Origin: Actinomycetota bacterium
GTDB lineage: Bacteria; Actinomycetota; Thermoleophilia; Solirubrobacterales; Solirubrobacteraceae
Direction of reading: 5' to 3'
DNA: 49,475 nucleotides
NCBI GenBank assembly: GCA_018268595.1
Contig: JAFDWH010000006.1
Coordinates: forward strand, 1 to 49,475
This document shows, in pieces, positions 15,657 to 42,587 of the stretch (positions are counted from its first letter, which is position 1; each line of letters starts with the position of its first letter). Below the pieces are notes generated by a model. That model saw nothing but the letters and a program-made list of their open reading frames with translations. It was not told the origin of the DNA and ran no database searches. The translations under genes and the position numbers were made by a program.

Positions 15657-17537
15657 ATGGCGGAGGAGCGCTGCCCGCCGATCGCGGACTACGGGCTGAT
15701 CGGCGACTGCCGCTCGGCGGCGCTCGTGTCGACCGCGGGCGCGATCGACTGGTGCTGCCTGCCGCGGATGGACCAGGGGAGCTGCTTCGGGCGACTGCTC
15801 GACTGGAAGCGCGGCGGCTGCTGCACGGTGGCGCCCGCCGGGCCGGCCCGCACCCGCCGCCGCTACCTCGACGGCACGCTCGTGCTGGAGACGCGGCTCG
15901 CCTGCGAGGCCGGCGAGGTGCGGCTGCTGGACTGCTTCGCCGTCGCGCCGGGGGAGGAGGCCGGCCCCCGCTCGCAGCTCCTGCGGATCGTCGAGGGCGT
16001 GCGGGGCGCGGTGACGTTGGAGGTGCGCGTGGCGCCGCGCTTCGACTACGGCGAGCTGCCGCCGTGGATCCGCGACCACGGCGGTGGGACGTTCAGCGCG
16101 ACCGGCGGCGACGACGCGCTGCTGATCTCCGGCGACCTGCCGTTGGAGGCGCGCAAGCACGAGCTGTGCGCTCGCTTGGAGCTGTGCGAGGGCGAGCGGC
16201 GGCGGCTGTCGATCGAGCATGTCGATCCGGTGCTGGTGGACGAGCGCCCGCGCGCGCAGGAGGACGCCGCCGCGCTCGACGCGCGCCTCGATGCGACGGT
16301 CGCGTGGTGGCGCGAGTGGTCCTCGCGTGCGAGCCCTGAGGCGCGGGAGGCGGGCGTGCTGCGCTCCACGCTCGTGCTGAAGGCGCTCGCCAACCCGGCG
16401 ACGGGGGCGATCGCCGCCGCGCCGACGACCTCGCTGCCGGAGGTCGACGGCGGCGACCTCAACTGGGACTACCGCTTCAGTTGGGTGCGCGACTCGACCT
16501 TCACCGTGCGCTCGCTCGCGGAGGTCGGCTACGACGACGAGGCGGACGCGTTCCGCCGCTTCGTCGAGCGCAGCGCCGCCGGCAGCGCCGAGGGCGTGCA
16601 GGTGATGTTCGGCCTCGGCGGCGAGCGGCGGCTGGGGGAGGTCACGCTCGAGCTGGCGGGCTACCGCGGCGCACGACCGGTGCGGGTCGGCAACTCAGCG
16701 GCCGACCAGTGCCAGCTCGGCGTCTACGGCCAGCTCCTCGAGCTCGCGTGGCGTTGGCATCTGCGCGATCACCGGCCGGACGACGACTACTGGCGCTTCC
16801 TCGTCGACGTCGCCGACGCGGCGGCGGCGCGCTGGCGCGAGCCGGACCGCGGCATCTGGGAGGTGCGCGGCGATCCGCGCCACTTCGTGCACTCGAAGGC
16901 GATGTGCTGGGCGGGGCTCGACCGCGCGATTCGCCTGGCCGAGGACACCGGGCGCGAGGCGCCGCTCGAACGCTGGGCCGCCGAGCGCGACGCGGCGCGG
17001 GAGGCGATCGAGTCCGACGGCTACGACGCTGCGCGCAGAACATTCGTGCAGGCGTTCGGCGACGGGCGCCTCGACGCCGCGTTGCTGCTGCTGCCGACGG
17101 TCGGCTTCGTGGAGTGGGACGACGAGCGGATGGTCGGCACCGCCGACGCGATCCGCGAGGAGCTGGACGCGGACGGCCTGCTGCTGCGCTACCGCGTCGA
17201 GGCGGACGAGGAGCACGAGGGCGCCTTCCTCGCCTGCTCCTTCTGGCTCGCCGAGTGCCTCGCGCACCAGGGCCGCGCCGACGAGGCCGCCGCGGTCTTC
17301 GAGCGCGCCGCCGGCTGCGCGAACGACCTCGGCCTCTTCTCCGAGGAGGCCGACCCGCGCACCGGCGAGCTGCTCGGCAACTTCCCCCAGGGCCTGACCC
17401 ACCTCGCCCACATCTCCGCCGCGCTCGCGCTCGCGGGGGCGAACTCCGCGATCACTGCACCTCTTACCTCGGTATGCGAGGCAAAAGATGCAGTGATCCG
17501 ATCGGGGCGCTTGCGGAGCGGCAGCACGGGATCGTGA
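15657..17537 (+). CDS. GH15-family glucoamylase/trehalase-like glycosidase
   Basis: A 626-residue protein with the N-terminal beta-sandwich domain of bacterial GH15 enzymes (IADYGLIGDCRSAALVSTAG, then IDWCCLPRMD) and the (alpha/alpha)6 catalytic barrel from about 255: NWDYRFSWVRDSTF, VRVGNSAADQCQLGVYGQLLE and HSKAMCWAGLDRA. Actinobacterial relatives include both glucoamylases and trehalases, so the substrate is uncertain. The catalytic domain normally ends near LTHLAHISAALALA. Here about 28 more residues follow and are encoded by the 49-bp palindrome at 17450 and the start of the next gene, which the GH15 frame overlaps by 64 bases. Confidence 0.85.
   Translation: MAEERCPPIADYGLIGDCRSAALVSTAGAIDWCCLPRMDQGSCFGRLLDWKRGGCCTVAPAGPARTRRRYLDGTLVLETRLACEAGEVRLLDCFAVAPGEEAGPRSQLLRIVEGVRGAVTLEVRVAPRFDYGELPPWIRDHGGGTFSATGGDDALLISGDLPLEARKHELCARLELCEGERRRLSIEHVDPVLVDERPRAQEDAAALDARLDATVAWWREWSSRASPEAREAGVLRSTLVLKALANPATGAIAAAPTTSLPEVDGGDLNWDYRFSWVRDSTFTVRSLAEVGYDDEADAFRRFVERSAAGSAEGVQVMFGLGGERRLGEVTLELAGYRGARPVRVGNSAADQCQLGVYGQLLELAWRWHLRDHRPDDDYWRFLVDVADAAAARWREPDRGIWEVRGDPRHFVHSKAMCWAGLDRAIRLAEDTGREAPLERWAAERDAAREAIESDGYDAARRTFVQAFGDGRLDAALLLLPTVGFVEWDDERMVGTADAIREELDADGLLLRYRVEADEEHEGAFLACSFWLAECLAHQGRADEAAAVFERAAGCANDLGLFSEEADPRTGELLGNFPQGLTHLAHISAALALAGANSAITAPLTSVCEAKDAVIRSGRLRSGSTGS
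17450..17498 (+). repeat. 49-bp palindromic element, copy 1 (start of DUF559 gene 1)
   Basis: Outer arms GATCACTGCA and TGCAGTGATC (17450-17459 and 17489-17498) pair perfectly. The inner arms CCTCG and CGAGG (17467-17471, 17477-17481) flank a GTATG centre. Across the element 19 of 24 symmetric positions are complementary. The centre contains the ATG (17474) of the DUF559 gene, and the element also encodes the tail of the GH15 protein. Ungapped, 38 of 49 bases equal the copy inside selB and 28 of 49 equal the copy at 42539. Confidence 0.8.
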
Positions 17538-18382
17538 CGCGGCGGCAGCTCGTCGCGCTGGGCGTGGACGGAAGCGCGATCGACCGGCGGACCGCGCGGG
17601 GGCTGCTGATCCCGCTGCACCGCGGCGTGTTCGCGGTCGGGCATCGCCATGTGACGCTCGAGGGGAGATGGTTGGCGGCGGTGTTGGCGGCCGGGGATGG
17701 CGCGGTGCTGAGCCACCGCGACGCCGCCGCGCTCCACGGGATGCGCAAGCCGCCGGAGTCGCGGAAGGTGAGCGTCACGACGGCCTCGGCGGCGAAGGGG
17801 ACGCAGAGGCTGTGGGTGTACGCGCGTCGAGCGCTCCACGAGGAGGACGTCGCGAGCGTCCGCGGCATCCCGGCCACCAGCCCCGCGCGCACGCTGGTGG
17901 ACCTCGCGCCCATGCTCACCGCCGGGCAGCTCCAGGCGACGTTGGGCGAGGCGGACCGTCGCGGGCTGCTCGAACCGGCCGCGGTCTACCGGGCGCTGCG
18001 TCGCACCAAGGGCCGCCACGGCCCGGGCCACCGGCGCCTCACGGCCGCCCTCGATGCCCATCGGCGGCGCGGCATCACCCTGTTGCGCTCCGAGTTGGAG
18101 GAGCGCTTCCTCGACCTGACGATCGACGCGGGCCTCCCGCAGCCGCGCCTGAACGCCCACGCCGCCGGCTTCGAGGTCGACGCGCTGTGGCCGACCGCGA
18201 GACTCGTCGTCGAGCTGGACGGCTGGGCGCACCACAAGGAGCGCCAGGCGGCGGCGTGGGACCGCGAGAAGAGCAACCGTCTGCAGGCGGCCGGGTACGT
18301 CGTCCTGCGCTTCATGCACGCCGACCTCGTCCACCGGCCGGCGCAGATCGCCGCGGCGATCAGCGACGCGCTCGCGCGATGA
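17474..18382 (+). CDS. AbiEi-type HTH protein with C-terminal DUF559 nuclease domain, copy 1
   Basis: A 302-residue protein. The N-terminus has the AbiEi-like helix-turn-helix GIVTRRQLVALGVDGSAIDR followed by PLHRGVFAVGH. The middle has RGIPATSPARTLVDLA. The C-terminal DUF559/Vsr-like domain shows PD-(D/E)xK-type residues: LRSELEERFLDL, FEVDALWP and VVELDGWAHHKERQ, then GYVVLRFMHADL. It is the same length as, and very similar to, the gene at 42563. The ATG at 17474 lies in the centre of the 49-bp palindrome. Its 3' end overlaps the convergent FAD oxidoreductase gene by 23 bases. The family has been linked to type IV toxin-antitoxin systems, but no toxin gene is adjacent, so a solitary regulator or homing-like nuclease is equally possible. 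Confidence 0.75.
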   Translation: MRGKRCSDPIGALAERQHGIVTRRQLVALGVDGSAIDRRTARGLLIPLHRGVFAVGHRHVTLEGRWLAAVLAAGDGAVLSHRDAAALHGMRKPPESRKVSVTTASAAKGTQRLWVYARRALHEEDVASVRGIPATSPARTLVDLAPMLTAGQLQATLGEADRRGLLEPAAVYRALRRTKGRHGPGHRRLTAALDAHRRRGITLLRSELEERFLDLTIDAGLPQPRLNAHAAGFEVDALWPTARLVVELDGWAHHKERQAAAWDREKSNRLQAAGYVVLRFMHADLVHRPAQIAAAISDALAR

Positions 18383-21308
18383 CCTCGCCGAGGTGCAGCG
18401 CGTGCCGCCCGGCCACCTGCTCGAGCTGCGTCTTGCAGGAGAAGCCGTCGGCGACGATCAGCGTCTGCGGGCTGGCGGCCCGCACGGCGGGCAGCAGCGC
18501 ATGCTCGCCGCACGCGATCGAGACGTCGTAGTGCCCGTCCTCGAAGCCCCATGAGCCGGCGAGCCCGCAGCAGCCGCCGCTGACCTGCTCGACCTCCAGG
18601 CCCATCCGCTCCAGCGCGGCCTGCTCGCAATCCATCCCGCCCGTCGCCTTCTGGTGGCAGTGGCCCCACAGCAACACGTGGCCCTGGAGGCGCGGCAGCG
18701 CGAGCTCGTGCTGCTCGACGAAGTCGGCGAAGTGCGTCGCGACCCGCCGCAGGCGGTCGGCGTCGTCGTCGTGCGGCAGCAGCTTCGGCAGCTCCTCCTT
18801 GAAGACCGCCAGGCAGCTCGGCTCGATCCCGACGACCGGCGTGCCGGCGCGGATCTCGTCGCGCAGCACGTCGAGCACGCGCCGCAGGTAGCGCTCGGCG
18901 ACGTCGAGGAAGCCGTAGTCGTACAACGGCCGCCCGCAGCAGACGTGCCCGGTCGGCATCACGACCTGCCAGCCGGCCGCCTCCAACACCTCCACGCAGG
19001 CGATCCCGACCTGCGAGTGGAAGTAGGTGTTGAACGTGTCGGGCCACAAGACGACGCGCGGTCCGACGAGGTTGCGCGAGCCGCCGCGCGCCGCGAACCA
19101 GCTGCGCAGGTCGGTCCTCGCGAAGCGCGGGATCGAGCGGCGCGGGTCCATCCCGGCGGCGCGCTTCGCGAGCGACGCGGTCGGCTCGTGCGCGGCGAGG
19201 AAGTTCAAGAGCGGCGCCGGCACGTGCGAGGCGACGCGGGCCGCCTGGTCGACGAAGCCGAACGCGTACGCGTGCCGCGGCCGGCGCGTGCGCGGCGCCT
19301 TATAGCGGTGGTAGAGGAACTCCGCCTTCAACGTCGGCATGTCGACGTTGACCGGGCAGTCGTTCGTGCAGCCCTTGCACGCGAGGCACAGGTCGAGCGC
19401 CTCCATCACCGCGTCGCTCTGCCAGCCGTCGGTCACGACCTCGCCGACGAGCATCTCGTGCAGCAGCCGCGCCCGGCCGCGCGTCGAGTGCATCTCCTCG
19501 CGGGTCGCCTGGAAGCTCGGGCACATGACCGACTTCGCGTCCGGCACGCGGCACTCGCCGATCCCGACGCAGCGCAGCGTCGCGTGCGAGAAGTCGCCGG
19601 CGTCCTGCGGATAGGCGAAGCGCACCGGCGGCCGGGCGGGGTTGTAGTCGGCGCCGAGGCGCAGGTTCTCGTCGAGCCGGTAGGGGTCGACGACCTTGCC
19701 CGGGTTCATCTTCCAGTCGGGATCCCAGATGCGCTTGAACGCGCGCATCGCCTCGACGCCCTCGCAGCCGAACTGCCGCTCCAGCAGCTCGGCGCGCTGC
19801 TGGCCGTCACCGTGCTCGCCGGACAGCGAGCCGCCGAGCGAGAGGCACAGGTCGGCTGCCTCCTCGATGAAGCGCCGGTACACCCGCAGCCCGTCGGCGT
19901 GGCGCAGGTCGAACGACGTGCTCGTGTGCACACAGCCCTGCCCGAAGTGGCCGTAGAACGCGCCGTCGAGCCCGTGCTTGTCGTACAGCTTCTGCAGCGC
20001 GCCGATGTACTCGCCCAGCTTCCCCGGGGGAACGGCCGAGTCCTCCCAGCCGGCCCAGTAGTTGCGCACGCCCTCCGGCCGGACCTCGAACGCGGTCGCG
20101 CCGAGACCGGCCTCGCGCGCTCTCCAGATCTCGGCGGCGTGTCCACGCGCGCCCGGCCGCTCGCCGCCGAAGCGCTCGATGCGGTCCTCGTCGTAGCCCT
20201 TCTCGTCGCGCAGCCAGGCGGCGAACGCCTCCGCCCGCTCGTCCTCCTCGCCGGCCCGGTCGGAGCCGAACTGCACGAGCAGCCACGCGCCGCCGCGCTT
20301 CGGCAGCGGCAACTCGTCGAACTCGGCCGCGTGCACGTGGCTGCGGCGCGCGGCCTTGCGCAGCGCGCGGTCGAGCCCCTCCAGCGCGATCGGTCTCCAC
20401 GCGAGGATCTCCTCGACGTGCTCGCAGGCGTCGACGAGCGTGTCGTACTCGACCACGACGAGCGAGCGGTGCGCGAGCGCGGGCGTCAGCAGCAGCGTCG
20501 ATCTCAGCACCGTCACGCAGGTGCCCTCGGTGCCGACCAGCGCGCGCGCGACGTTGAAGCCGCGCTCCGGCAGCAACTCGTCGAGGTTGTAGCCGGAGAC
20601 GCGCCGCGGCAGCTCGTCGACCGGGCGCCAGGCGGCGCGGATGACGTCGGCGTATCTGTCGCGCAGCTCCCTCAGCGCGGCGTAGATCTCGCCCTTGCGC
20701 CCGCCGGCGGCGACGATCTCGTCGATCCGCTCCTCCTCGCCGACGCCGACCTCGAAGCGCGCGCCGTCGTAGGTGAGGATCTCCAGCGCGGCGACGTTGT
20801 CGGACGTGCGCGGCCCGGGGCCGTAGAGCTGCGACTGCACGGAGTGCGTGCCGCACGAGTTGTTGCCGACGTTGCCGCCGATCGTGCAGCGCGAGTGCGT
20901 CGAGGGGTCGGGCCCGAACACCAGCCCCACCGCGCCGGTGCGGTGGTTGACCTGCTCGTTGATCGCGCCCGGCTCGACGGTGACGGTCCTCTCGTCCGCG
21001 TCCGGCTCGCCGATCCACGTCAGGTGTCTGGAGACGTCGATCACGACCGCGTGGTTGACCGTCTCGCCCGACAGGCTCGTCCCGCATCCACGGGGAACGA
21101 GCGGCGCGCCGAAGGCGTGGCAGGCGGCGTGCGCGGCGACGACGTCGTCGAGCGTGCGCGGGACGACGACGCCGATCGGGATCTGGCGGAAGTTCGACGC
21201 GTCGGTCGCGTAGAGGCCCTTCGCGGCGGCGTCGAAGCGCACCTCGCCCGCGACCGTCTCGCACAGGCGGCGCTTGAGGCCGGCGACGTCGAGCGGCGTC
21301 GCGCTCAT
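18360..21308 (-). CDS. FAD-linked oxidase with C-terminal Fe-S / CCG domains (GlcD-GlcF-like fusion)
   Basis: A 982-residue fusion. Residues 1-~540 are a FAD-binding oxidase (VPRGCGTSLSGETVNHAVV, DPSTHSRCTIGGNVGNNSCG and FGHFGQGCVHT-like histidine cluster YGHFGQGCVH). A ferredoxin-like region follows with LDLCLACKGCTNDCPVNVDMP, supplying [4Fe-4S] cysteines, and then two CCG-type motifs (GHVCCGRPLYDYG and SGGCCGLAGSWG). This layout is that of D-lactate/glycolate/2-hydroxyglutarate-type dehydrogenases that pass electrons to quinones. It overlaps the upstream enolase-superfamily gene as ATGA, so the two share an operon, suggesting a sugar-acid or hydroxy-acid pathway. Confidence 0.85.
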   Translation of the reverse strand: MSATPLDVAGLKRRLCETVAGEVRFDAAAKGLYATDASNFRQIPIGVVVPRTLDDVVAAHAACHAFGAPLVPRGCGTSLSGETVNHAVVIDVSRHLTWIGEPDADERTVTVEPGAINEQVNHRTGAVGLVFGPDPSTHSRCTIGGNVGNNSCGTHSVQSQLYGPGPRTSDNVAALEILTYDGARFEVGVGEEERIDEIVAAGGRKGEIYAALRELRDRYADVIRAAWRPVDELPRRVSGYNLDELLPERGFNVARALVGTEGTCVTVLRSTLLLTPALAHRSLVVVEYDTLVDACEHVEEILAWRPIALEGLDRALRKAARRSHVHAAEFDELPLPKRGGAWLLVQFGSDRAGEEDERAEAFAAWLRDEKGYDEDRIERFGGERPGARGHAAEIWRAREAGLGATAFEVRPEGVRNYWAGWEDSAVPPGKLGEYIGALQKLYDKHGLDGAFYGHFGQGCVHTSTSFDLRHADGLRVYRRFIEEAADLCLSLGGSLSGEHGDGQQRAELLERQFGCEGVEAMRAFKRIWDPDWKMNPGKVVDPYRLDENLRLGADYNPARPPVRFAYPQDAGDFSHATLRCVGIGECRVPDAKSVMCPSFQATREEMHSTRGRARLLHEMLVGEVVTDGWQSDAVMEALDLCLACKGCTNDCPVNVDMPTLKAEFLYHRYKAPRTRRPRHAYAFGFVDQAARVASHVPAPLLNFLAAHEPTASLAKRAAGMDPRRSIPRFARTDLRSWFAARGGSRNLVGPRVVLWPDTFNTYFHSQVGIACVEVLEAAGWQVVMPTGHVCCGRPLYDYGFLDVAERYLRRVLDVLRDEIRAGTPVVGIEPSCLAVFKEELPKLLPHDDDADRLRRVATHFADFVEQHELALPRLQGHVLLWGHCHQKATGGMDCEQAALERMGLEVEQVSGGCCGLAGSWGFEDGHYDVSIACGEHALLPAVRAASPQTLIVADGFSCKTQLEQVAGRHALHLGEVIARARR

Positions 21309-22417
21309 GCCGCGTAGCGCTCCGCGTCGGCGCGCTTCAGCTCGATCCCCAGCCCCGGCCGCGCGCGGTCCGGCCGCAGCAGGCCGTCGACCGGCTCGGG
21401 CGTGCCGTCGAACAGCAGCCGCTCCGCGCGCTGGTGGTCGAAGAACCACTCGGTGTGCCGCAACGTCTCCAGCCCGCAGCCGGCGTGCGCCATCGCGGCC
21501 GGCACGCAGTGGCCGGAGAACGGCCGCTCGTGCGCCGCGCACAGCCCGTCGATCCGCAGCAGGTTCGTGATCCCGCCGCAGCGCGAGACGTCGGCCTGCA
21601 GCACGTCGACCGCCTCCGCCTCCAGCAGCCGGCGCGCGTCGGCGAGCGTCCACGCGTACTCGCCGGCGGCGATCGCGAGGCCGGCGGGCGCGCGCCCGCG
21701 CACGTCGCGCAGGCCGACGGCGTCGCGCGAGGAGAGCGGCTCCTCGATCCAGCGCACGTCGTGCTCGCGCGCGAAGCGGTGCGCCCAGCGCAGCGCCTCC
21801 GAGGGGGTGCGGTACGCGCCGTTCGCGTCGACCATCAGCTCGACCTCGTCGCCGACCGCCTCGCGCGCGGCGGCGGCGCGCGCCACGTCCGCCGCCGGGT
21901 CGCGCCCGACCTTCATCTTCACGGAGCGGAAGCCGTCGGCCGCCCAGCCGCCGAGCTGCTCGGCCACCTCCGCCGCGCCGTAGCTCGTGAAGCCGCCGCT
22001 GCCGTAGGCGGGGACCGCGTCGCGGAAGCGCGGCAGCAGGTCGCACAGCGCGACGCCGAGCAGCTTCGCCTTCAGGTCCCACAGCGCGAGGTCGACGGCG
22101 GAGACGGCCATCGCCGCGAGGCCCTCCTGCCCGAGCTGGCGGATCGCCGCCTGCATGCGCGCCCACGCCGCGCCCGGCGCCATCGCGTCGACGCCCGCGA
22201 TCGCATCTGCGAGCGTCGTCGTCGCGATCCGCGCGGCGGCGGCGTCGCAGTAGCTGTAGCCGAGGCCGGTCGCGCCGCCCCCGTCGATCTCCACGACGAC
22301 CACGCCGGTCGCGTGCCACACGAGCGTCCCGTCGGACTCCTGCGGCGTCGCGGTGGGGATCTCGTAGGCGCTCGCGCGCACGCTCCCGACCCGCACCGCC
22401 TCCGTCGTCGCGCTCAT
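21305..22417 (-). CDS. enolase-superfamily dehydratase/epimerase (mandelate racemase group)
   Basis: A 370-residue enolase-superfamily enzyme. The KxK motif is K167-x-K169 in SVKMKVG. The metal ligands are D197 (MVDANG), E225 or E226 (WIEEP) and E253 (AAGEYAW). A D-H dyad is suggested by D275/H303 (LQADVSRCGG and FSGHCVP), as in mandelate racemase and sugar-acid dehydratases. It would abstract the alpha proton of a carboxylate and lose water or epimerise. Translational coupling to the FAD/Fe-S dehydrogenase suggests a shared acid-sugar or hydroxyacid route. The start codon is preceded by a 45-bp gap containing a motif shared with 45289-45315. Confidence 0.83.
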   Translation of the reverse strand: MSATTEAVRVGSVRASAYEIPTATPQESDGTLVWHATGVVVVEIDGGGATGLGYSYCDAAAARIATTTLADAIAGVDAMAPGAAWARMQAAIRQLGQEGLAAMAVSAVDLALWDLKAKLLGVALCDLLPRFRDAVPAYGSGGFTSYGAAEVAEQLGGWAADGFRSVKMKVGRDPAADVARAAAAREAVGDEVELMVDANGAYRTPSEALRWAHRFAREHDVRWIEEPLSSRDAVGLRDVRGRAPAGLAIAAGEYAWTLADARRLLEAEAVDVLQADVSRCGGITNLLRIDGLCAAHERPFSGHCVPAAMAHAGCGLETLRHTEWFFDHQRAERLLFDGTPEPVDGLLRPDRARPGLGIELKRADAERYAA

Positions 22418-22448
22418 CGGGGATGAGTGGTTTCCGCAGGCGCGTGCC

Positions 22449-22475
22449 GGGAATCGCCGGGGTCATGGATGTGAC
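22449..22475. repeat. 27-bp shared intergenic motif, copy A
   Basis: GGGAATCGCCG (22449-22459), then GTCA, then TGTGAC (ending 22475). On the minus strand it reads GTCA-N6-TGAC followed by CGGCGATTCCC. Without gaps, 22 of 27 bases equal copy B at 45289-45315. Both copies lie at the stop of one minus-strand gene and just upstream of the next. It may be an operator or promoter element. Confidence 0.45.
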
Positions 22476-27931: not shown

Positions 27932-28293
27932 CGCGTCCGCCGCTCCGCGCGCCACTCGCGCGCCAGCCCGCCGACGGCGAACGCGAACAGGCCGGCGCCG
28001 ATCAGGCACAGGAACGTGCCGACCTCGAGCCCCAGCAGCACGAGCGCGAGCGCGAGCGCCGCCAGCACCGCCGGCCAGCTCGTCTCCGGCACCGCCTGCG
28101 GCGCGAACGCTCGCTCGCCGGCGCGCCGCGCCGCGCGCCAGCCCGCGAGCGCGATCAGCGCCGTGCCCGCGACCGCGAACGCGGGCATCAGCACGCTCAG
28201 GTAGTCGACCTCCTCGAACACCGCCCACAGCACGACCGCCAGCGCGCCGAGCAGCGCCGCCCACACGAGGATCGCGACGCCCGGCCGTCTCAC
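27928..28293 (-). CDS. small membrane protein, cytochrome c oxidase subunit IV-like
   Basis: A 121-residue protein with four predicted helices in two pairs (residues ~8-27, 33-52, 72-88, 92-108) joined by a polar loop, and a basic C-terminus. The position directly after ctaD and the topology resemble CtaF, the extra subunit of actinobacterial oxidases, but no diagnostic motif is visible. GTG start at 28293 overlaps the ctaD stop. Confidence 0.5.
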   Translation of the reverse strand: MRRPGVAILVWAALLGALAVVLWAVFEEVDYLSVLMPAFAVAGTALIALAGWRAARRAGERAFAPQAVPETSWPAVLAALALALVLLGLEVGTFLCLIGAGLFAFAVGGLAREWRAERRTR

Positions 28294-30550: not shown

Positions 30551-30591
30551 GCCAGCGACGTACCCCGCCCGCCGCACGACGAAGCGGAGCG

Positions 30592-31626: not shown

Positions 31627-31672
31627 GCGGGTTGCGCAGCGGGCCGCCGCGCGCCGGCTCTCCCACCTCCCT

Positions 31673-31764
31673 GGAGCGGCCCGGGGCCGGTGCCCCGAAC
31701 GGCCTTCAAAGCCGTCGGCGGCGCGCTTCCCGCGCCGGGAAGGTTCGACTCCTTCGCCGCTCCG
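31673..31764 (+). tRNA. selC: tRNA-Sec (anticodon TCA)
   Basis: A 92-base selenocysteine tRNA. The eight-base-pair acceptor stem is GGAGCGGC (31673-31680) with GCCGCTCC, longer than normal tRNAs. The D arm has a six-pair stem and four-base loop, CGGGGC-CGGT-GCCCCG. The anticodon arm is ACGGC-CTTCAAA-GCCGT with TCA at 31706-31708. A long variable arm has stem GGCGCG/CGCGCC. The T arm is GAAGG-TTCGACT-CCTTC. The discriminator is G at 31764 and no CCA is encoded. These are the hallmarks of bacterial tRNA-Sec. It lies between selD and selB. Confidence 0.95.
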
Positions 31765-31801
31765 TCCGAGCCACCCCGCGCGTCGTCGGCCCAGGCACGC
31801 C

Positions 31802-33349
31802 GTGAGCGCCGGCCCGCTCACGCTCGGCACCGCCGGCCACGTCGACCACGGCAAGACCGCGCTCGTCGCCGCGCTCACCGGCGTGGACATGGACCGCCTG
31901 CCGGAGGAGCGTGCGCGCGGGCTGACGATCGCGCTCGGCTATGCGCCGCTGACACTGCCCTCCGGCCGGCGGCTGTCGGTCGTGGACGTGCCCGGCCACG
32001 AGCGCTTCGTGCGCACGATGGTCGCGGGCGCGAGCGGGATCGACGCGTTCCTGATGGTCGTCGCGGCCGACGACGGCGTGATGCCGCAGACGGTCGAGCA
32101 CGCGGAGGTCCTCCACGCGTTGGGCGTGGCGGACGGCGTGGTCGCCGTCACGAAGGCCGACGCGGCGGACCCGGCGCGCGCGGTCGCGGAGGCGCGCGAG
32201 CTGCTCGGACCGGGCGTGCCCGTCGTGGCGTGCTCGGCGCGGACCGGGATGGGCATCGAGGAGCTGCGCGCGGCGCTCGACCGGCTCGCGTCTGTGCTCG
32301 CCAGCCGCGCGGCGGCCGGCGGGCCGGCGCGGCTGCACGTCGACCGCGCCTTCACCGTCACCGGCCGCGGCACGGTCGTCACCGGCACGCTGTGGTCGGG
32401 CGCGCTCGCCGCCGGCGACGCGCTGGAGCTGCTGCGCCCGGGGCGGGGCGCGCTGGCGGTGCGGGTGCGTGGCTTGCAGGTGCACGACGAGCAGCGCGAC
32501 CGCGCCGAGGCGGGCCAGCGCGTCGCGGTCAACCTGCTCGGCGCGCGCGTGGCGGACGTCGCGCGCGGCGACGTGCTGGCCGCGCCCGGCGCCGTGTCCG
32601 AGGCGCGGATCCTGGACTGCGCGCTCGCGCTGCGCGACGCGCCCGCCTCACGTGGTGCGCGCGTGCAGATCCATCACGGCGCGCGCGACGTGCCCGGCCG
32701 CCTCGCGCCGCTCGACCCCGACGACGGCCTGTGGCAGCTCCGACTCGAGGCGCCTTTGCTCGCGCTCGACGGCGACCGCCTCGTCGTGCGCCGCCTCGCG
32801 CCGCCCGACACGCTCGGCGGCGGCGTCGTGCTCGACGCGCGCGCCGGCCGCCACGGCGCGCGGCCCGAGATCGTCGCGCGCCTGCGCGCGCTCGCGCGCG
32901 GGGAGCCGGCGCGACGCGCGCCGCGGCTCGAGCACTGCGTCTCTGACCTCGCTATGCGAGGCGAGATCGGCAGTGCTCCGCCGGCCGCGGCGCTCGCCGC
33001 GCTGGAGCAGCGCCTGCGCGCCGCCGGCCCGGCGCTGCTGTCGGAGGCGCAGATGACGGGGGAGGAGGACGCGCTGCGCGCGCTGCGCGCCGACGGGCGG
33101 GCGGTCCGCGTGAGCGGGCGGCTGTACGCGCACGCCGACGTGGCGGCCGACGTGGGCGAGCGGATCGTCGCGCTGCTCGAGCGCGACGGCCCGCTCGGGC
33201 TCGCCGCCGTGCGCGACGCGCTCGGCCTCTCGCGCAAGAGCGCGCAGGCGTTCCTGGAGCAGCTCGACGCCGCGCGGGTCACGCGGCGCCTGCCGGACGA
33301 CCGCCGCGAGCTGGTCCGCCGGTCCGCGCACGCCGGAGCGCGCGCATGA
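31802..33349 (+). CDS. selB: selenocysteine-specific elongation factor
   Basis: A 515-residue SelB. The GTPase motifs are AGHVDHGKT (11-19), DVPGH (62-66) and TKAD (117-120). EF-Tu-like domains II and III run to about residue 375, including the GGGVVLDARAGRHG segment. The C-terminal part that binds the SECIS RNA has only about 120 residues, with the last winged helix recognisable in LLERDGPLGLAAVRDALG. Characterised SelB proteins have four winged helices and are longer, so the first two may be missing. A 49-bp palindrome encodes residues ~377-393 at exactly that junction, in frame. GTG start; stop overlaps selA (ATGA). Confidence 0.92.
   Translation: MSAGPLTLGTAGHVDHGKTALVAALTGVDMDRLPEERARGLTIALGYAPLTLPSGRRLSVVDVPGHERFVRTMVAGASGIDAFLMVVAADDGVMPQTVEHAEVLHALGVADGVVAVTKADAADPARAVAEARELLGPGVPVVACSARTGMGIEELRAALDRLASVLASRAAAGGPARLHVDRAFTVTGRGTVVTGTLWSGALAAGDALELLRPGRGALAVRVRGLQVHDEQRDRAEAGQRVAVNLLGARVADVARGDVLAAPGAVSEARILDCALALRDAPASRGARVQIHHGARDVPGRLAPLDPDDGLWQLRLEAPLLALDGDRLVVRRLAPPDTLGGGVVLDARAGRHGARPEIVARLRALARGEPARRAPRLEHCVSDLAMRGEIGSAPPAAALAALEQRLRAAGPALLSEAQMTGEEDALRALRADGRAVRVSGRLYAHADVAADVGERIVALLERDGPLGLAAVRDALGLSRKSAQAFLEQLDAARVTRRLPDDRRELVRRSAHAGARA
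32930..32978 (+). repeat. 49-bp palindromic element, copy inside selB
   Basis: Outer arms GAGCACTGC/GCAGTGCTC (32930-32938, 32970-32978), inner arms CCTCG/CGAGG (32947-32951, 32957-32961) around CTATG. 18 of 24 symmetric positions are complementary. It is translated in frame as part of SelB (EHCVSDLAMRGEIGS). Relative to copy 1, position 3 changes T to G and its partner at position 47 changes A to C, so pairing is kept. There is no obvious target-site duplication. Confidence 0.78.
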
Positions 33350-34737: not shown

Positions 34738-34782
34738 CGGATATCTCTACGAAATTGTATTGTGAACGATTACGAAATGGTA
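34725..34782 (+). promoter_or_regulatory. three TAC-N6-GTA repeats at 23-bp pitch plus -10 box
   Basis: TACGAATCTGTA (34725-34736), TACGAAATTGTA (34748-34759) and TACGAAATGGTA (34771-34782) start exactly 23 bp apart. Each is a TAC/GTA dyad with a shared GAA core, in a locally AT-rich stretch. TAGTCT at 34781-34786 fits a TANNNT -10 box seven bases before the ATG at 34793, so the third repeat overlaps the promoter. This looks like an operator array for the ATPase gene that follows. Confidence 0.6.
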
Positions 34783-34792
34783 GTCTATGGGC

Positions 34793-36064: not shown

Positions 36065-36070
36065 CCGACC

Positions 36071-36379
36071 TCACGACGCCTCGTCGTGCGCCGGCTGCGG
36101 CAGCGCCCAGCTCGGCCCGCCCGCGCGCATCCGCCGCTCGACCGTCCACTGCCCGTCGCGTTGGGTCAGCAGCGCGACGAGCCGGTCGCCCTCGCGCGTG
36201 CGCAGCTCGCCGGCCGTCGGCCCGCTCGAGCGATAGGCGAGCTTGCGCTCGCCGGCCAGCGCACCGTCCACGATCTGCTGCACGCGCGCTGGCTCCAACC
36301 GCTCCGCCCGCTGGTCGCGCAGCGTCGTCGAGAGCGCGTTGAGCGCGCGGCTGATCTCGACGTCGGTCGGGCGGCTCAC
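36071..36379 (-). CDS. small protein of unknown function at the end of the fdh operon
   Basis: A 102-residue soluble, charged protein. A helix-rich first half (VEISRALNALSTTLRDQR, then RVQQIVDGALAGERKL) is followed by a beta-like region with DRLVALLTQRDGQWTVERR. I do not recognise a family. The GTG at 36379 overlaps the stop of the ferritin-like gene (GTGA), which supports it as real and part of the formate dehydrogenase operon. Six bases separate its stop from the convergent ATPase gene. Confidence 0.6.
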   Translation of the reverse strand: MSRPTDVEISRALNALSTTLRDQRAERLEPARVQQIVDGALAGERKLAYRSSGPTAGELRTREGDRLVALLTQRDGQWTVERRMRAGGPSWALPQPAHDEAS

Positions 36380-37308
36380 GTGCGCGGCGCCTCCGGTCTC
36401 GGCTCGGTGACGCCGCTGCGCCACAGCCGCGACTGCTCGATCGTCATCGCCATCGCCAGCTCGTCCTCGGCGTTCGCGCGCGCGAGCGCCGCGGTGCGTG
36501 CGTCGCCGGCCGCGCGCGCGAGCTGCGCGAGCCGCTCGTACGCCGCCAGCTCGCCGCGCTCGAACGCGTGCGCCGCGCGCAGGTCCGCGGGGTCGGGACG
36601 CCGGCGCAGCCGCCCGAGCTGCGCCTGCGCGTAGGCGCCGAGCTTCGCGCCCCAGTCGAGCGGTCGCAGGCGCGCCGCGTCCAGCTCGTCGAGTCGCTCG
36701 CGCACGCGCTCGGCGTGCCGGTTCGTCGCCTTGTGGTGAAACGCGACGTCGTGCACCAGCTCCTCGTCGTGCAGCCGCCAGCGCATCGCCGCCAGCAGCT
36801 TCAGCGACGCCTGCTCCATCGCGTGCGCCGCCCGCAGCGCCTGCACGACCTCCGCGCGCCGCTCCGGCACGCCGGCCGGTGGCGGCGCGCCGGCCGGCTC
36901 GGCGACCGTCTGCGGGTGCGCCGCGCCGGGGTCGCGCAGCTCGCCCGTGCCGGAGGTGTCGCGGTCGAGCACGAGCCCGAAGTGCGCGGCGGCCGTCCGC
37001 TTCGCGGCCACGTCGATGTCCTCGCCGACGCGCACGCGCGGGGCGTCGCGCACCGTCTCGGCCGGCGTCACGACGCGCACGCGCCGCCCGGTCGGCAGCG
37101 CCCCGCGGGCCGGCACCAGCACGCCCTCCTCGCCGGAGCCGGAGCCGGAGCAGGAGTCGGACCCCGGGCCGCCGGGCACCAGCACGAGCCACTCCGGCGC
37201 GCCGGTCTCGGCGTCGTGCAACGCGCCCGCGATCGTGCCGAGCGCCGCGCCGTACGGGTCCTGCGCCGTGCGGCCGGTCCAACTGCGCGCGTCCTCGGCG
37301 GTCAGCAT
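36376..37308 (-). CDS. ferritin-like helical protein with N-terminal PRC-barrel-like region
   Basis: A 310-residue protein. Residues 1-~125 resemble a PRC-barrel (DPYGAALGTIAGALHDAETG, EWLVLVPGG, then VDVAAKRTAAAHFGL-like end) with a Ser/Gly-rich insert at about 48-60 encoded by a GGAGCC-type simple repeat. Residues ~150-300 are a long-helix bundle with acidic and histidine residues (AMEQASLKLLAAMRWRLHDEE, HHKATNRHAER, AHAFERGELAAYERLA) like the DUF892/ferritin-like group. It overlaps the NrfD gene (ATGA). It could help metal or stress handling of the formate dehydrogenase; no function is established. Confidence 0.6.
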   Translation of the reverse strand: MLTAEDARSWTGRTAQDPYGAALGTIAGALHDAETGAPEWLVLVPGGPGSDSCSGSGSGEEGVLVPARGALPTGRRVRVVTPAETVRDAPRVRVGEDIDVAAKRTAAAHFGLVLDRDTSGTGELRDPGAAHPQTVAEPAGAPPPAGVPERRAEVVQALRAAHAMEQASLKLLAAMRWRLHDEELVHDVAFHHKATNRHAERVRERLDELDAARLRPLDWGAKLGAYAQAQLGRLRRRPDPADLRAAHAFERGELAAYERLAQLARAAGDARTAALARANAEDELAMAMTIEQSRLWRSGVTEPRPEAPRT

Positions 37309-38366
37309 CAGCTCGCGCCCCCGCGACCCGCCAGCCCAGCCGCGCGCGCCGCGCCCGCCGCCACGACGCGCCGGCTGGCGCCGCGCGTGCGCCCGCCGGC
37401 GATCCGCCTGCGCTGCGGCGCCACGGTGTAGCGCGGGTCGCGCGCCGACTGGAAGCCGGCCTTGAAGACGCTCCAGCGCTCGCACGCCGCGCCCGCCAGC
37501 ACCAGCGCCCCGCCGGCCGCCGCCGCCGCGCGCGAGCGCTCCGCGCGCGCCGCCAGCAGCAGCGAGCCGGCGACCGTCAGCCCGCGTGCGAGGCGGCCGT
37601 AGGCGCCGGCCGCCTCGCGGTGATACGGCTCGCCCAGCTCGCCGAGCCGGTGCTCCATCAGCGGCACGATCGCCAGCTCCGCGACGCAGCCCACGAGCGC
37701 AAGCCGCCGCGCCGGGCCGGCGTGGGCGACCGGCGTCAAAGCGCTCGCCAGCGCGCCCGCGCTCGCCGCCGCGCCGGCCGCGAACAGCGCCGGCAGCTCG
37801 CGCCGCGCCTCGTGCCACACCGGCACCGCGGTCTGCGCGATCAGCGCGCCGGTGTACGTCGCGAGCGGCAGGCCCGCCGCCGCCGCGGCCGGGCGCGCCG
37901 GGATCGCGGCCACGCGCAGCAGCCGGCGCCAGCGCCGCCGCGCCGGCGGCAGCAGCGCGTCGAGTCCCGCGGCGCTCGCCGCCCCGCCCGACACGGCCAG
38001 CACCCACGAGCCGACGCTCATCGGCGAGGTGACCTTGAACATCCGCAGCATGTAGAGGAAGCGCGCCGGTCTCCCCAGGTCGCTGATCAGCAGCACGGGC
38101 GACATCCCCGTGCCGACGAGCGCGCCGATCCACGCACGCCGCGCCAGCACCTCGTTCCCCCGCAGCTCGGCCAGCCACGCCAGCCCGGCCGACGCGCCGC
38201 CGAGCCCGCCGGCGAAGAAGTACCAGGGGATCTCCGGGTGCCAGATCGGCTCCTTGATGACCGGCTGGCCGTGGTAGGAGCGCGCCTCGCGCGGCGCCTC
38301 GCGCTCGACCGCGGCGGGGAAGCTCCCGAGCCGCGCGTGCCCGTTCGCGGAGCCGGCCGCCGTCAC
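37308..38366 (-). CDS. NrfD-family membrane subunit of the formate dehydrogenase
   Basis: A 352-residue NrfD/PsrC-type protein with about eight to nine helices. The N-terminus has PVIKEPIWHPEIPWYFFAGG and GLGGASAGLAWLAELRG, typical of the quinone-site entrance, then LLISDLGRPARFLYMLRMFK and SPMSVGSWVLAVSG, which are strongly conserved in the family. It would anchor FdhAB to the membrane and pass electrons to the quinone pool. GTG at 38366 overlaps the fdhB stop. Confidence 0.85.
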   Translation of the reverse strand: MTAAGSANGHARLGSFPAAVEREAPREARSYHGQPVIKEPIWHPEIPWYFFAGGLGGASAGLAWLAELRGNEVLARRAWIGALVGTGMSPVLLISDLGRPARFLYMLRMFKVTSPMSVGSWVLAVSGGAASAAGLDALLPPARRRWRRLLRVAAIPARPAAAAAGLPLATYTGALIAQTAVPVWHEARRELPALFAAGAAASAGALASALTPVAHAGPARRLALVGCVAELAIVPLMEHRLGELGEPYHREAAGAYGRLARGLTVAGSLLLAARAERSRAAAAAGGALVLAGAACERWSVFKAGFQSARDPRYTVAPQRRRIAGGRTRGASRRVVAAGAARAAGLAGRGGAS

Positions 38367-39259
38367 CGCCGGCCTCCGAGCAGCACCGACCCGATCAGCG
38401 CGGCGGCGAGCCCGGCCGCCGCGACGCCGACGGCCGCCCAGGACTCGCCGACGTCGCGCGTCGTGTCGACCGGATCGGGCGGCAGCCCGTACACCTCGGG
38501 GTCGTCGAGCAGCAGGAAGAACGCGCCCGCCCCGCCCACGCCGTCCGACGAGTCCGCGAGGTAGAGCTGCGCGCCCTCCAAGCCGGCCTCCGCGAGCTGC
38601 TCCAGCCGCCGATCCGCCCGCCCGCGCAGCTCCTCCAGCTCGCCGAACTGGATCGAGTCGGTCGGGCACGCCTGCGCGCACGCCGGCTCCTTGTCGTCCT
38701 TCAGGCGGTCGTAGCAGAGCGTGCACTTCCAGGCGCGACCGTCGCCCTCGCGCTGGTCGAGCACGCCGAACGGGCACGCCGGAATGCAGTAGCCGCAGCC
38801 GTTGCAGACGTCCTCCTGCACGACGACCGTGCCGAACTCGGTGCGGAACAGCGCTCCGGTCGGGCACACCTCCAGGCACGCCGCGTGCGTGCAGTGCTTG
38901 CAGACGTCGCTCGCCATCAGCCAGCGCAGCCCCTCGCCGTCCTGGTAGGTCTGCAGCCCGGTGTCGGTCACGAGCGACTCGAGCGAGGCCGCCTCCACGA
39001 GCCCCCCGGCGGCGACCCCGTCGACGCCCAGCTCCTTGCGCTGCTCGACGAACGCGACGTGGCGCCAGCGGTTCGCGCCGAGGTCGATCGAGTTGTCGTA
39101 GGAGTTGCCGGTGAAGCCCTGCGGCGACTCCGGCACGCGGTTCCACTCCTTGCACGCGACCTCGCACGCCTTGCAGCCGATGCACAGCGAGGTGTCGGTG
39201 AAGAAGCCGACGCGCGGTCTCGCCTCGCCGCCGTAGGTGCGGACCTCCAGCTCGCTCAT
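38363..39259 (-). CDS. fdhB: formate dehydrogenase iron-sulfur (beta) subunit
   Basis: A 298-residue electron-transfer subunit with four ferredoxin-type clusters: CIGCKACEVACKEW, CKHCTHAACLEVCPTGAL, CNGCGYCIPACPFG, and the CTLCYDRL...CAQACPTDSI pair. A single helix near the C-terminus (VGVAAAGLAAALIGSVLLGG) anchors it in the membrane. It lies between the catalytic and the NrfD-type subunits with four-base overlaps on both sides. Confidence 0.92.
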   Translation of the reverse strand: MSELEVRTYGGEARPRVGFFTDTSLCIGCKACEVACKEWNRVPESPQGFTGNSYDNSIDLGANRWRHVAFVEQRKELGVDGVAAGGLVEAASLESLVTDTGLQTYQDGEGLRWLMASDVCKHCTHAACLEVCPTGALFRTEFGTVVVQEDVCNGCGYCIPACPFGVLDQREGDGRAWKCTLCYDRLKDDKEPACAQACPTDSIQFGELEELRGRADRRLEQLAEAGLEGAQLYLADSSDGVGGAGAFFLLLDDPEVYGLPPDPVDTTRDVGESWAAVGVAAAGLAAALIGSVLLGGRR

Positions 39260-42200
39260 CCGGCCGCGCCTCCCTCCGCGCGGCCGGCGCGGTCCTCGCG
39301 CACCGGCTCGCCGGGCACGACGCCCGCGCGCCGGCGGTACTCCTCGACGAACGCGCTCAGCGCCGGCCCGCGCGGGCGCCGCCCCGCGACGATGTCGCAC
39401 GTCGCCGTCTTGAACTCGGAGATGTGCACGTTGAGGTCGAGCACCAGCGGCAGCAGGTCGTTCGCCGAGTCGCCCTTGACGAGCCCCTTGCGGCCCCAGT
39501 GGTAGGGCACGCCGACCTGGTGCACGAGCCGGTCGGCGACCTTCAGCGGCTGCACGCGGTCGGTCACCATCACGCGCGCCTCGATCGCCGTGCGAGTCGT
39601 GACGATCGTCGCCCAGCCGCCGTGCTCCAAGCCCCGCTCGGCCGCGAGCGCCGGGCTCACCTCGCAGAACAGCTCCGGCTGCAGCTCGGCGAGGTAGGGG
39701 ACCGTGCGGCTCATGCCGCCGGCGGTGTGGTGCTCGGTCAGCCGATAGGTCGCCAGCACGAACGGGAACACGTCCGCGCCCGGCTGCACGTCGGACGGGT
39801 TGTACGGGTTCTCGGGGCGCGGGAACGTCTGTCGCGTCGGCACCGAGCGTTGCGCGTAGAGCAGGTTCGGGACGGGCGACTCGTGCGGCTCGTAGTGCGT
39901 CGGCAGCGGTCCGTCGACGAGCCCGGTCGGCGCGTACAGCCAGCCGAGCCCGTCGGGGTGCAGGATGAACGGGGAGCTGCCGGAGATCGCGTCCATCGCC
40001 TTCGCGTCCTCGGGGGGCTCGTAGTCGGGCGGTCGGTCGGGCACGAAGTCGGGGTCGTCGCCCAGCGAGGCCCATCTTCTCTCCGAGGCGTCCCACCAGA
40101 CGTACTTCTTGCGCTCCGACCACGGTCTGCCCTCCGGGTCGGCGGACGCGCGGTTGTAGAGGATGCGGCGGTTGCTCGGCCACGCCCAGCCCCACTCGGG
40201 CGCGATCCAGCTCTGCTCGCCGCCGGGCTTCTTGCGCGCGCTCTGGTTCTCGCCGTCTCTGTAGATGCCGGCGTGGATCCACGAGCCGCACGTGGTCGAG
40301 CCGTCGTCTCTCAGCTCCTGGTATCTGGAGACGAAGCTGCCGTCGGCGTGGCGGCCGTTGACCTCCTGCATGACCGTCTCGGCGTCGGGCTCGTCCTGCG
40401 GGCCCTGCGTCGGGTAGTCCCACGTGAGGTCGAGCAGCGGCCGGTCGCGCTCCTCGGTCGACCCGGCCAGCCGCGCGCGCACGCGGCGGCCGAGGTGGTA
40501 GGTGAACCACAGGTCCGAGCGGCAGTCCCGCGGCGGCTCGACCGCCTTGAAGTGCCACTGCAAGAGCCGCTGCGTGTTCGTGAAGGTGCCGTCCTTCTCG
40601 GTGTGCGCGGCGGCGGGGAGGAAGAAGACCTCCGTGCCGATCTGCTCCGGCGAGGTCTCGCCGGCCTCGATCTCAGGCGAGTCGTACCAGAAGGCGGCCG
40701 TCTCGATCTCGTTCGTGTCGCGCACGACGAGCCACTCGAGGTTCGCCAGCGCACGGCGTTGCAGCCCCGCGTTGGCGGAGCCGACGGCCGGGTTCTGCCC
40801 GATCACGACGAACCCTCTCGTGCGCCCGTCGAGCATCCGCAGCATCATCTGGTAGTGCGAGTGGTCCCCGTCGATGCGCGGCAGGTACGGGAACGCGAAC
40901 TGGTTCTCCGGCGTCGCCGCGTCGCCCCACCACGCCTTCAGCAGGCTCACCGCGTACGACTTCAGGTCGCCCCACGCGCCGGTGTCGGGACCGTTTCTCT
41001 CGACGAACTCGTCGAGGTCGTCGCCCGCGTCCGGGTGCGGCATCGGGATGTAGCCGGGCAGGATGTCGTAGAGCGTCGGGATGTCGGTCGAGCCCTGGAT
41101 GTTCGCGTGGCCGCGCAGCGCGAGGATGCCGCCGCCGGGCCGGCCGATGTTGCCGAGCAGCAGTTGGACGATCGAGGCGGCGCGGATGTTCTGCACGCCG
41201 TGCGTGTGCTGCGTCCAGCCGACCGCGTAACAGATCGCGGAGGTGCGCTCGCGGCCGGAGTTGCGGCAGAGGATCTCCGCGACCTGGAGCAGCTTCTCGC
41301 GCGGCACGCCGCACACCTGCTCGACCATCTCTGGCGTGTAGCGGGCGAAGTGGCGCTTGAGCAGTTGGAAGACGCAGTTGGGGTGCTCGAGGCTCCAGTC
41401 CTCCTCGGGCGGCTCGCCGTGCTCCAGTCTCATCCCGTGCGCGCCGTGCGCCTGGTCGCCCGAGACGTCGCCGGTCTGCTCGCGCTTGCCGGCCGGCAGC
41501 TCGCCGCTCGTGCCGGCGTAGCCCCACGTCGAGACGTTGTAGACGCCGTCCTCCGGAACCCAGCCGGAGAAGAAGCCGTCCAGCTCCTCAGGGTCCTTGA
41601 ACTCGTCCTTGATGATCACGCGGGCGTTGGTGTAATGCCGCACGTACTCGGTGAACTGGCGGTCGTTGCTGAGGATGTAGTTGATGACGCCGCCGAGGAA
41701 CGCGATGTCGCTGCCGGGCCGCAGCGGCACGTGCAGGTCCGCGACCGCGCTCGTACGGGTGTAACGGGGGTCGACGTGCATCACCGTCGCGCCGCGCTCC
41801 TTCGCCTCGACCACCCACTGGAACCCGACCGGATGCTGCTCGGCCATGTTCGAGCCCATGATCAGGATCGCGTCAGCGTTCGCGAGGTCCTGCTGGAACG
41901 TGGTGGCGCCGCCGCGCCCGAACGAGGTCCCCAGACCGGGGACCGTCGAGCTGTGTCATATGCGCGCCTGGTTCTCGATCGACACCGCGCCCGCGGCGGA
42001 GAAGAACTTCTTCATCAGGTAGTTCTCCTCGCTGTCGAGCGTGGCGCCGCCGAGCACCGCGACGCCCAGCGTGCGCCGCAGCGGCTTGCCGTCCTCGTTG
42101 ACGTCCTCCCACGTCTCGGCGCGCGTTCTGAGGAAGCGGTCGGCGATCATGTCGATCGCCGTCTCGAGCTTCAGCGACTCCCATCTCGTCCCGTACGGCC

Positions 42201-42498
42201 TGCGGTACTTGACCTCGTGCTCGCGCACCGGCGAGTTGACGTACGCCTCGGACGCAGCGCCCTTCGGGCACAGCCGACCGCGCGATATCGGCGAGTCGGG
42301 GTCGCCCTCGATCTGGACGACCCTCTCGTCCTTGACGTACACCTTCTGCCCGCAGCCGACGGCGCAGTAGGGGCAGATCGACTGCACGACCCGGTCGGCG
42401 GTCTTCGTCCGCGGGACCAGCTCCGCGCTCCTCCGCGACCGCGCGGAGTTCCCAAGCCCCAACGGATCGCCCCTCAGCTGCCGCAGAAAGCCCGTCAC
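39256..42498 (-). CDS. fdhA: selenocysteine-containing formate dehydrogenase, catalytic subunit
   Basis: One gene of 1,080 residues read through an in-frame TGA (plus-strand 41956-41958), which is Sec181. The flanks IENQARI-U-HSSTVPG match the Sec site of bacterial formate dehydrogenases, and GTSFGRGGATT follows. The N-terminal [4Fe-4S] cluster is C42, C45, C49 and C77 (ICPYCAVGCG, GRLCPKG). The molybdopterin domains continue with MGSNMAEQHPVGFQW and GNIGRPGGG. A SECIS hairpin starts 11 bases after the TGA. The GTG at 42498 is the start. No Tat signal is evident. It oxidises formate to CO2 and passes electrons to FdhB. Confidence 0.94.
41926..41958 (-). promoter_or_regulatory. Sec-UGA codon and bacterial SECIS hairpin in fdhA
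   Basis: On the minus strand the TGA occupies 41958-41956. Eleven bases later a perfect seven-pair stem, GGTCCCC (41944-41938) with GGGGACC (41932-41926), encloses the loop GGTCT (41937-41933). In E. coli fdhF, SelB needs a short stem 11 nucleotides after the UGA with G and U in a GGUCU-like loop, so spacing and loop both match. Confidence 0.9.
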
Positions 42499-42538
42499 GC
42501 CCTGTCGCCTACCCGAGCGCCACGGGGGCGAATCCGTC

Positions 42539-42587
42539 GATGACTGTCCCTCTTCATACCTCGTGCGTACTCAGACGGACAGTGATC
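42539..42587 (+). repeat. 49-bp palindromic element, copy 3 (start of DUF559 gene 2)
   Basis: Outer arms GATGACTGTCC and GGACAGTGATC (42539-42549, 42577-42587) pair at 10 of 11 positions; overall 16 of 24 symmetric positions are complementary. The inner CCTCG/CGAGG stem of the other copies is lost. Positions 9/41 (C-G to T-A) and 10/40 (A-T to C-G) differ from copy 1 by paired changes. The GTG (42563) of the DUF559 gene lies at the centre. It occupies most of the 64-bp gap to the divergent fdhA. Confidence 0.7.

Follow-up and report, generated by a model that had tools for sequence, protein, structure and literature searches.

Three copies of a 49-bp palindrome lie within a 49,475-nucleotide stretch of the genome of an Actinomycetota bacterium of the family Solirubrobacteraceae (contig JAFDWH010000006.1; the whole stretch is called the window here). 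Two of them sit at the start codons of paralogous AbiEi/DUF559 genes, as the original prediction from the letters of the window had said, and the third is alone inside selB. Seen against the rest of the host genome and its relatives, they are best explained, with a probability that we put at about 0.6, as parts of a mobile system resembling that of the repetitive extragenic palindromes (REPs) but served by an unrelated enzyme, with one gene paralogue for each palindrome family. This is apparently a large, undescribed system of soil actinobacteria. Recomputation returned the positions of the three 49-mers (Table 1), their 19, 18 and 16 symmetric pairs of 24, and the ungapped identities of 38/49 between copies 1 and 2 and 28/49 between copies 1 and 3; copies 2 and 3 agree at 26/49. 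Of the paired substitutions claimed between the copies, those at positions 3/47 (T-A, G-C) and 9/41 (C-G, T-A) are real, but at 10/40 the claim fails for the selB copy, which has G opposite G, unpaired, where copy 1 has A-T and copy 3 has C-G. Palindromy alone is unremarkable in the G+C-rich DNA of the window, where 18/24 symmetry is reached by four 49-mers, two of them unrelated to the palindrome family. A general covariance model placed copies 1 and 2 far above background and left copy 3 marginal (E 0.0055, with the next, unrelated matches at 0.0086 and 0.0094). Because of this score, the membership of copy 3 leans mainly on its location at the start codon of a paralogue.

Across the 3.57-Mb host genome such 49-mers are more frequent than chance would give. 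A loose pattern built from the three copies found 10 forward and 10 reverse matches against 1 and 1 for the control, and a family-derived pattern with at most two mismatches found 13 host sites against 0 for the reversed control pattern; the latter had no site in any of 60 relatives, including six congeners. A homologue of the DUF559 gene lies within 1.5 kb at two of 14 pattern loci, namely genes 1 and 3 themselves. The host has five AbiEi_4/DUF559 genes, and all five carry at their start a palindrome of the same plan with different arms (GTACATC/GATGTAC at L017, GGGTCCC/GGGACCC at L019 and, at the same place, CCTCG/CGAGG at gene 1). Where one family of three had been seen, the host has five genes and five start palindromes, at least three of these in clear families.

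Genes and palindromes are paired in the host and in its congener G005. Palindromes were gathered by pattern, by model and from gene starts, giving 28 in the host (14 by pattern) and 54 in G005 (8 by pattern). With gene starts included, the host families comprise 13 members for gene 1, six for L017 and four for L019; gene 3 stands alone, and L018 has two solo copies that share the outer arm only. One host row, L254, is off register and was left out of later counts. G005 has families of 21, 11, 9, 4, 3 and 2 members, each with a resident gene start, besides two genes without scattered copies in the set and two orphan palindromes. For all 68 scattered copies of the two genomes, the outer arm is closer to that of a resident gene start than to those found at genes in the other genome, and an outer-arm identity of at least 22/30 is reached by 67/68 copies with a resident gene versus 2/68 with the other genome's genes. 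The outer arm is diagnostic of the family; inner arms are at times exchanged between families. The G005 families of nine and 11 share the inner arm ACCCC/GGGGT, as if modules had been swapped. In G014, a genome of another genus that lay outside model training, six of eight copies agree at 42-49 of 49 positions with resident gene L162 or L295, one of the six being the 3' copy of L162 itself.

The same association appears on a wider scale. Among the matches listed in a covariance-model scan of 41 genomes, which used strict filters and often counted a palindrome on both strands, seven genomes of the host's genus have 14 to 63 strand-matches each, G014 has 32, G050 has 28 and 18 genomes have none. 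Model matches are listed in 21 of 28 genomes with a DUF559 gene versus two of 13 without, the summed strand-matches being 407 versus 3, and every full-length match listed is 49 bases long; elsewhere, two sites have 50 bases.

Homologous loci numbered 76, most of them in Thermoleophilia. After removal of two N-terminally truncated and two duplicate entries, a palindrome score of at least 13 near the start was found at 31/72 loci versus 28/1821 control windows from the same loci. Alignment of 106/111 gene regions yielded 58 distinct start palindromes with at least 16/24 pairs, and in 55 of these the centre is in the codon phase of the protein. ATG or GTG stands exactly at position 25 in 22 of the 55; for 26 of the remaining 33, an in-frame ATG, GTG or TTG lies no farther than 30 bases upstream, which would allow translation of the palindrome, and only one of the 55 contains an in-frame stop. 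The commonest ends among the 58 are G1 (42), A2 (31), T48 (30) and C49 (32), the GA...TC ends being nearly constant in the host and G005 families, and Y14-T15 stands opposite A35-R36 in most (T15 in 42, A35 in 43). One DUF559 gene of this family, L074, has two palindromes at its start; its contig, CAMCUD010000007.1, is labelled as a metagenome-assembled genome of Bifidobacterium breve, a label that looks doubtful.

Pairing is kept while the sequences change. Twenty-five well-paired 49-mers chosen by hand (23 gene starts, the selB copy of G005 and one solo copy of the host) align without gaps across all 49 columns. Their paired cells amount to 86.2%, against 52.6% after shuffling and at most 39.6% when slid, and their covariation is 0.809 against 0.208 and at most 0.140, respectively. 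None of 500 shuffles reached either observed value; the paired structure was defined from the same 25 sequences, which favours the observed value in the slid control. Compensatory change is found within a family as well, as in that of gene 1, where the pair 10/40 is G-C six times, A-T three times and C-G once. Symmetry by itself is no proof of function, because quasi-palindrome correction could maintain the arms without selection.

The element has sharp ends, and some genes are flanked by it on both sides. Likeness stops at the 49-bp boundary in the five families shown, with no conserved bases outside, and the flanks of 77 elements have nothing in their composition but G/C richness; in neither set of flanks was there a GTAG or CGTC tag like those beside REPs. 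Three identical copies in G005 (L230, L232 and L233) have nothing evident in common in their flanks. Identical full-length 49-mers with unrelated flanks suggest copying and not convergence. A second copy of the same family (at least 34/49) is present in the locus of 16/55 genes with a start palindrome, compared with 0.4% of 2970 cross-locus control comparisons, and in 13/55 this second copy is at or near the stop codon, at a distance of 0.86-1.01 kb from the start copy.

The protein is predicted to consist of an AbiEi-like DNA-binding module joined to a homing-endonuclease domain of the I-Bth0305I/Vsr type. AlphaFold2, supplied with 42 window and related sequences, gave a mean confidence score (pLDDT) of 91.8. 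Residues 4-197 of the model resemble AbiEi of Streptococcus agalactiae (6y8q, Z 12.7), a firm match by Foldseek (2.1e-7), and residues 201-302 resemble the catalytic domain of I-Bth0305I (Z 13.1), the putative endonuclease 3hrl (12.3) and Vsr (10.9). Foldseek matches of the nuclease domain are weaker, at 3.4e-3 and above, and sequence profiles agree on it (3hrl, 7e-8; 3r3p, 3.1e-5). Four acidic residues (E209, D236, E247 and D263) are invariant across the 42-sequence alignment. PHROGs and NCBIfam returned weak matches at most, those of NCBIfam falling under the cut-off. AbiEi is described as binding inverted repeats in its own promoter and autoregulating (PMC7319586), and I-Bth0305I as forming a dimer on a target almost 60 bp long (PMC3943268); from these precedents, a dimer of the fused protein on the 49-bp dyad would be expected. 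Whole-protein identity does not follow outer-arm identity (rho 0.05; inner arm, 0.17). The stretch whose divergence best follows that of the outer arm, over and above whole-protein identity, is at about residues 116-140 of the gene 1 protein (partial r 0.28; family-wise permutation p 0.004, with permutations that ignore the tree); it is a candidate specificity determinant.

From this, the palindromes would be the recognition cassettes of a REP-like element system, either selfish or domesticated. Each AbiEi/DUF559 gene would encode a dimeric nuclease that reads the 49-bp dyad across or beside its own start, where it probably autoregulates, and that would promote the copying of the same cassette to new places, mostly extragenic and often directly after stop codons. 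The gene may sometimes be copied along and so come to lie between two cassettes. Several parallel families, distinguished by the outer arm, would exist in one genome because paralogues diverge in specificity. Binding, dimerisation, autoregulation, cleavage and copying are the steps that we infer; for the copying reaction, our first guess would be repair-templated copying into a cut and our second hairpin excision. A bolder version, to which we give slightly less than an even chance, holds that this is a new class of selfish element, in which a homing-type nuclease copies its own 49-bp palindromic site and not only its gene, and in which duplication and divergence produce orthogonal pairs. Both guesses of the original prediction are partly supported. 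That the palindrome is the DNA site of the AbiEi/DUF559 protein fits the finding of one family per resident paralogue, binding and cutting by the protein being presumed. That it is the end of a small mobile unit, with the selB copy as a remnant, agrees with the same-family copies that flank some genes and with the solo 49-bp cassettes in selB of two species, but the selB copy may instead be a directly copied cassette, and the palindrome is not solely a terminus, because it extends over, or lies directly beside, the start of the nuclease coding sequence.

A number of observations weigh against the REP-like reading. Family membership is not blind, because host and G005 palindromes formed part of the model's training set and because patterns supplied 14 of the host copies and eight of those of G005, the first host copies having been found with a pattern built from the window copies. 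Among 34 copies of G003, G004 and G014, 21 reach 22/30 with a resident gene and four with a gene from elsewhere; a resident gene is the closer one for 25, one of which is itself the 3' copy of a gene, one copy is tied and eight are nearer to a gene of another genome (the genes compared were 10/10 for G014, 6/7 matches for G003 and 3/5 matches for G004). G004 holds palindrome families for which no gene was found, and none of the DUF559 fragments searched there has a palindrome. Many DUF559 starts are without a clear 49-mer, and seven of the 28 genomes bearing the gene have no model match among the matches listed. A same-family 3' copy is missing from all five host genes, the best likeness there being 24-29 of 49. 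Of the five measures of covariation, two clear the shuffles only modestly: pairs with both sides changed number 20/22 against 18.1 shuffled, reached by 31/500 shuffles, and further pair types number 59 against 52.8, reached by 11/500. There is no clear target-site duplication of 2-10 bases relative to permuted flanks, the largest signal being 0.419 versus 0.368 (sd 0.024) at four bases, nor was an empty or polymorphic site seen in the compared genomes, which are distant (best selB, 74%). Orthologues of GH15, a neighbour of gene 1, were rejected as empty sites since their best identity of 54% is too distant.

The most serious alternative is that the DUF559 protein regulates transcription, the scattered palindromes being its operators and kept by selection on expression, with no mobility at all. 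The palindrome does overlap or adjoin the gene start, and relatives of AbiEi bind inverted repeats and autoregulate (PMC7319586). The places of the elements tell a different story. Of 77 host and G005 elements, gene starts included and 5/82 rows left out, 62 lie outside predicted reading frames and 15 inside, with gene calls made by a codon-usage heuristic. Tandem gaps hold 34 and convergent gaps 21, several of the latter being little more than the element itself, three are unresolved, and only four lie between divergent genes. A regulator alone also leaves the nuclease domain and the 3' copies unexplained, and identical 49-mers in unrelated flanks point to copying, so that we hold this alternative to be unlikely.

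A second alternative is that some other, unrecognised enzyme spreads the palindromes, the DUF559 genes being cargo, or else hosts for which the palindrome serves as start region. We only infer copying by the DUF559 protein, and the families of G004 for which no gene was found would suit such an enzyme. So would an HNH_2 endonuclease gene of G005 (L274:767-1945, on C3), which lies between two 85-bp direct repeats that are 99% identical and both contain an identical family palindrome; HNH_2 may be a second nuclease type that uses the same cassettes. Set against this are the one-to-one match of families with paralogues in both the host and G005, the same-family flanking on both sides and the co-occurrence of gene and palindrome across genomes. 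Moreover, the HUH Y1 transposase (PF01797) is absent from the host and seven others of the 10 genomes searched, other transposases not having been searched for; G014 has three and G050 one. Without PF01797 in the host, RAYT was rejected as the mover there. Spread by another enzyme is in our judgement improbable.

Still poorer are the prospects of RNA-level hairpins, that is terminators, 3'-end stabilisers or RNase targets selected for pairing in mRNA. Convergent or tandem gaps, where at least one gene therefore ends towards the element, hold 55 of the 62 elements that are not inside predicted frames, and compensatory changes keep pairing both between and within families. On the sense strand of the 58 start palindromes, however, A.C mismatches (69) outnumber those of G.U (37), the reverse of the pattern that a sense RNA hairpin would allow, and on this ground such a hairpin was rejected. 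A terminator needs neither a 49-base frame nor sharp ends, and Rfam, run on 17 loci, gave no match up to E 5 overlapping any palindrome. Least credible of all is self-marking or defence, with the nuclease sparing or cutting DNA depending on the presence of the palindrome, which could call on the PADLOC AbiEi models that match the N-terminal module and on the four invariant acids of the nuclease domain, but which has to contend with tens of copies, few for genome marking, and with the fact that no identified neighbour of gene 1 or gene 3 is an AbiEii toxin.

Besides these elements, the window holds the features listed in Table 1. Related selB genes did not turn out to encode the same residues from a non-palindromic sequence, which would have counted against the original prediction. 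Among 15 SelB orthologue loci, one of which ends before the linker, only those of the host and G005 have a covariance-model match in the linker, whose residues are not conserved, and the elements of the two species belong to different palindrome families. Other palindromes occur in the same linker in G014 (L111), G012 (L113) and G021 (L123), for example TGCCAGGCACC...GGTGCCTGGCA. These are of another kind than the 49-bp elements, and the linker is perhaps a hotspot for several kinds of repeat. Genes for a SelD-like protein, SelB and SelA are adjacent to each other near the selenocysteine tRNA (tRNA-Sec) gene, and the molybdopterin oxidoreductase frame from 41859 may encode a selenoprotein read through TGA. 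Identified neighbours are GH15 and a flavin adenine dinucleotide (FAD) oxidase/Fe-S protein for gene 1, and the molybdopterin oxidoreductase and a thiamine pyrophosphate (TPP) enzyme for gene 3; 41860-42538 has no identification. By eye, a motif like GGGGGCGAA also stands about six bases ahead of the palindrome in several relatives' genes with ATG at the palindrome centre.

Table 1. Features of the window discussed in the text (SECIS, selenocysteine insertion sequence; CM, covariance model).
Feature	Coordinates	Strand	Remarks
GGGGGCGAA motif before gene 1 palindrome	17435..17443	+	6 bases between motif end and palindrome
Gene 1 start palindrome, 49 bp	17450..17498	+	ATG at exact centre (position 25); CM E 8.3e-11; 13-copy family
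Gene 1, AbiEi/DUF559	17474..18382	+	Predicted AbiEi-like DNA-binding module (4-197) fused to EDxHD/Vsr-like nuclease domain (201-302); Pfam AbiEi_4 and DUF559; PADLOC AbiEi 3.4e-24; AlphaFold2 pLDDT 91.8; fold matches
tRNA-Sec gene	31673..31763	+	RF01852, above gathering threshold; just upstream of selB
selB	31802..33349	+	SelB domains; carries solo palindrome in variable interdomain linker
Solo palindrome, gene 1 family, 49 bp	32930..32978	+	In frame within selB; CM E 5e-07
SECIS_3-like match, weak	41900..41961	-	Below gathering threshold; beside molybdopterin oxidoreductase frame from 41859
GGGGGCGAA motif before gene 3 palindrome	42524..42532	+	6 bases between motif end and palindrome
Gene 3 start palindrome, 49 bp	42539..42587	+	GTG at centre; more degenerate (16/24); CM E 0.0055
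Gene 3, second AbiEi/DUF559 paralogue	42563..43471	+	74% identity to gene 1; DUF559; AbiEi_4 under Pfam cut-off

REP elements occur widely in bacteria, and we know of no partner enzyme for them other than the HUH transposase RAYT. The system described here is not a member of that group, as the host has no HUH transposase and the palindrome has no tag outside it. PMC2817692 and PMC3733652 describe REP palindromes as matched to a partner gene, biased towards extragenic places and specific in sequence to each genome. The palindromes of the present system are likewise genome-specific, largely extragenic and found beside gene 3' ends, and they are matched to a gene that the same palindromes flank in 13 of 55 cases, none of them in the host. 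In contrast, the partner is an AbiEi module with an EDxHD/Vsr-like nuclease and not an HUH Y1 transposase, the elements are 49 bp long where REPs have 20-40, bases beyond the palindrome are not conserved, the gene begins within it or shortly ahead of it, and several families share one genome, each with its own paralogue. With I-Bth0305I, an EDxHD homing endonuclease, the protein shares the catalytic domain by sequence (3r3p, E 3.1e-5) and by fold (Z 13.1), and the 49-bp dyad recalls the long target bound by its dimer, as described in PMC3943268. It differs in the AbiEi fusion, in the several paralogues per genome and in a presumed site that is a scattered palindrome. The AbiEi antitoxins of type IV toxin-antitoxin systems have the fold of residues 4-197 (6y8q, Z 12.7) and the PADLOC profile (3.4e-24) in common with it, but here there is an extra C-terminal nuclease, and none of the neighbours identified for gene 1 or gene 3 encodes AbiEii. 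Rickettsia palindromic elements are palindromic cassettes inserted in frame in protein genes, as in selB here, although of another length and in another taxon, and we know of no partner gene for them.

Searches of open-licence papers gave no account that links DUF559 genes to palindromes or REP elements, joins AbiEi with DUF559 or palindromic elements with a homing endonuclease, or reports related palindromic repeats for Thermoleophilia or repeat elements for Conexibacter. Should the REP-like reading be right, it would suggest a function for AbiEi_4/DUF559 genes and provide many natural protein-DNA pairs for the decoding of specificity. In the bolder version, several orthogonal pairs of nuclease and palindrome within a single chromosome would amount to a natural specificity code, and REP-like repeats would have arisen independently of HUH transposases. 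A second, unrelated enzyme that follows the logic of one gene for one palindrome would show that more than one mechanism stands behind such repeats.

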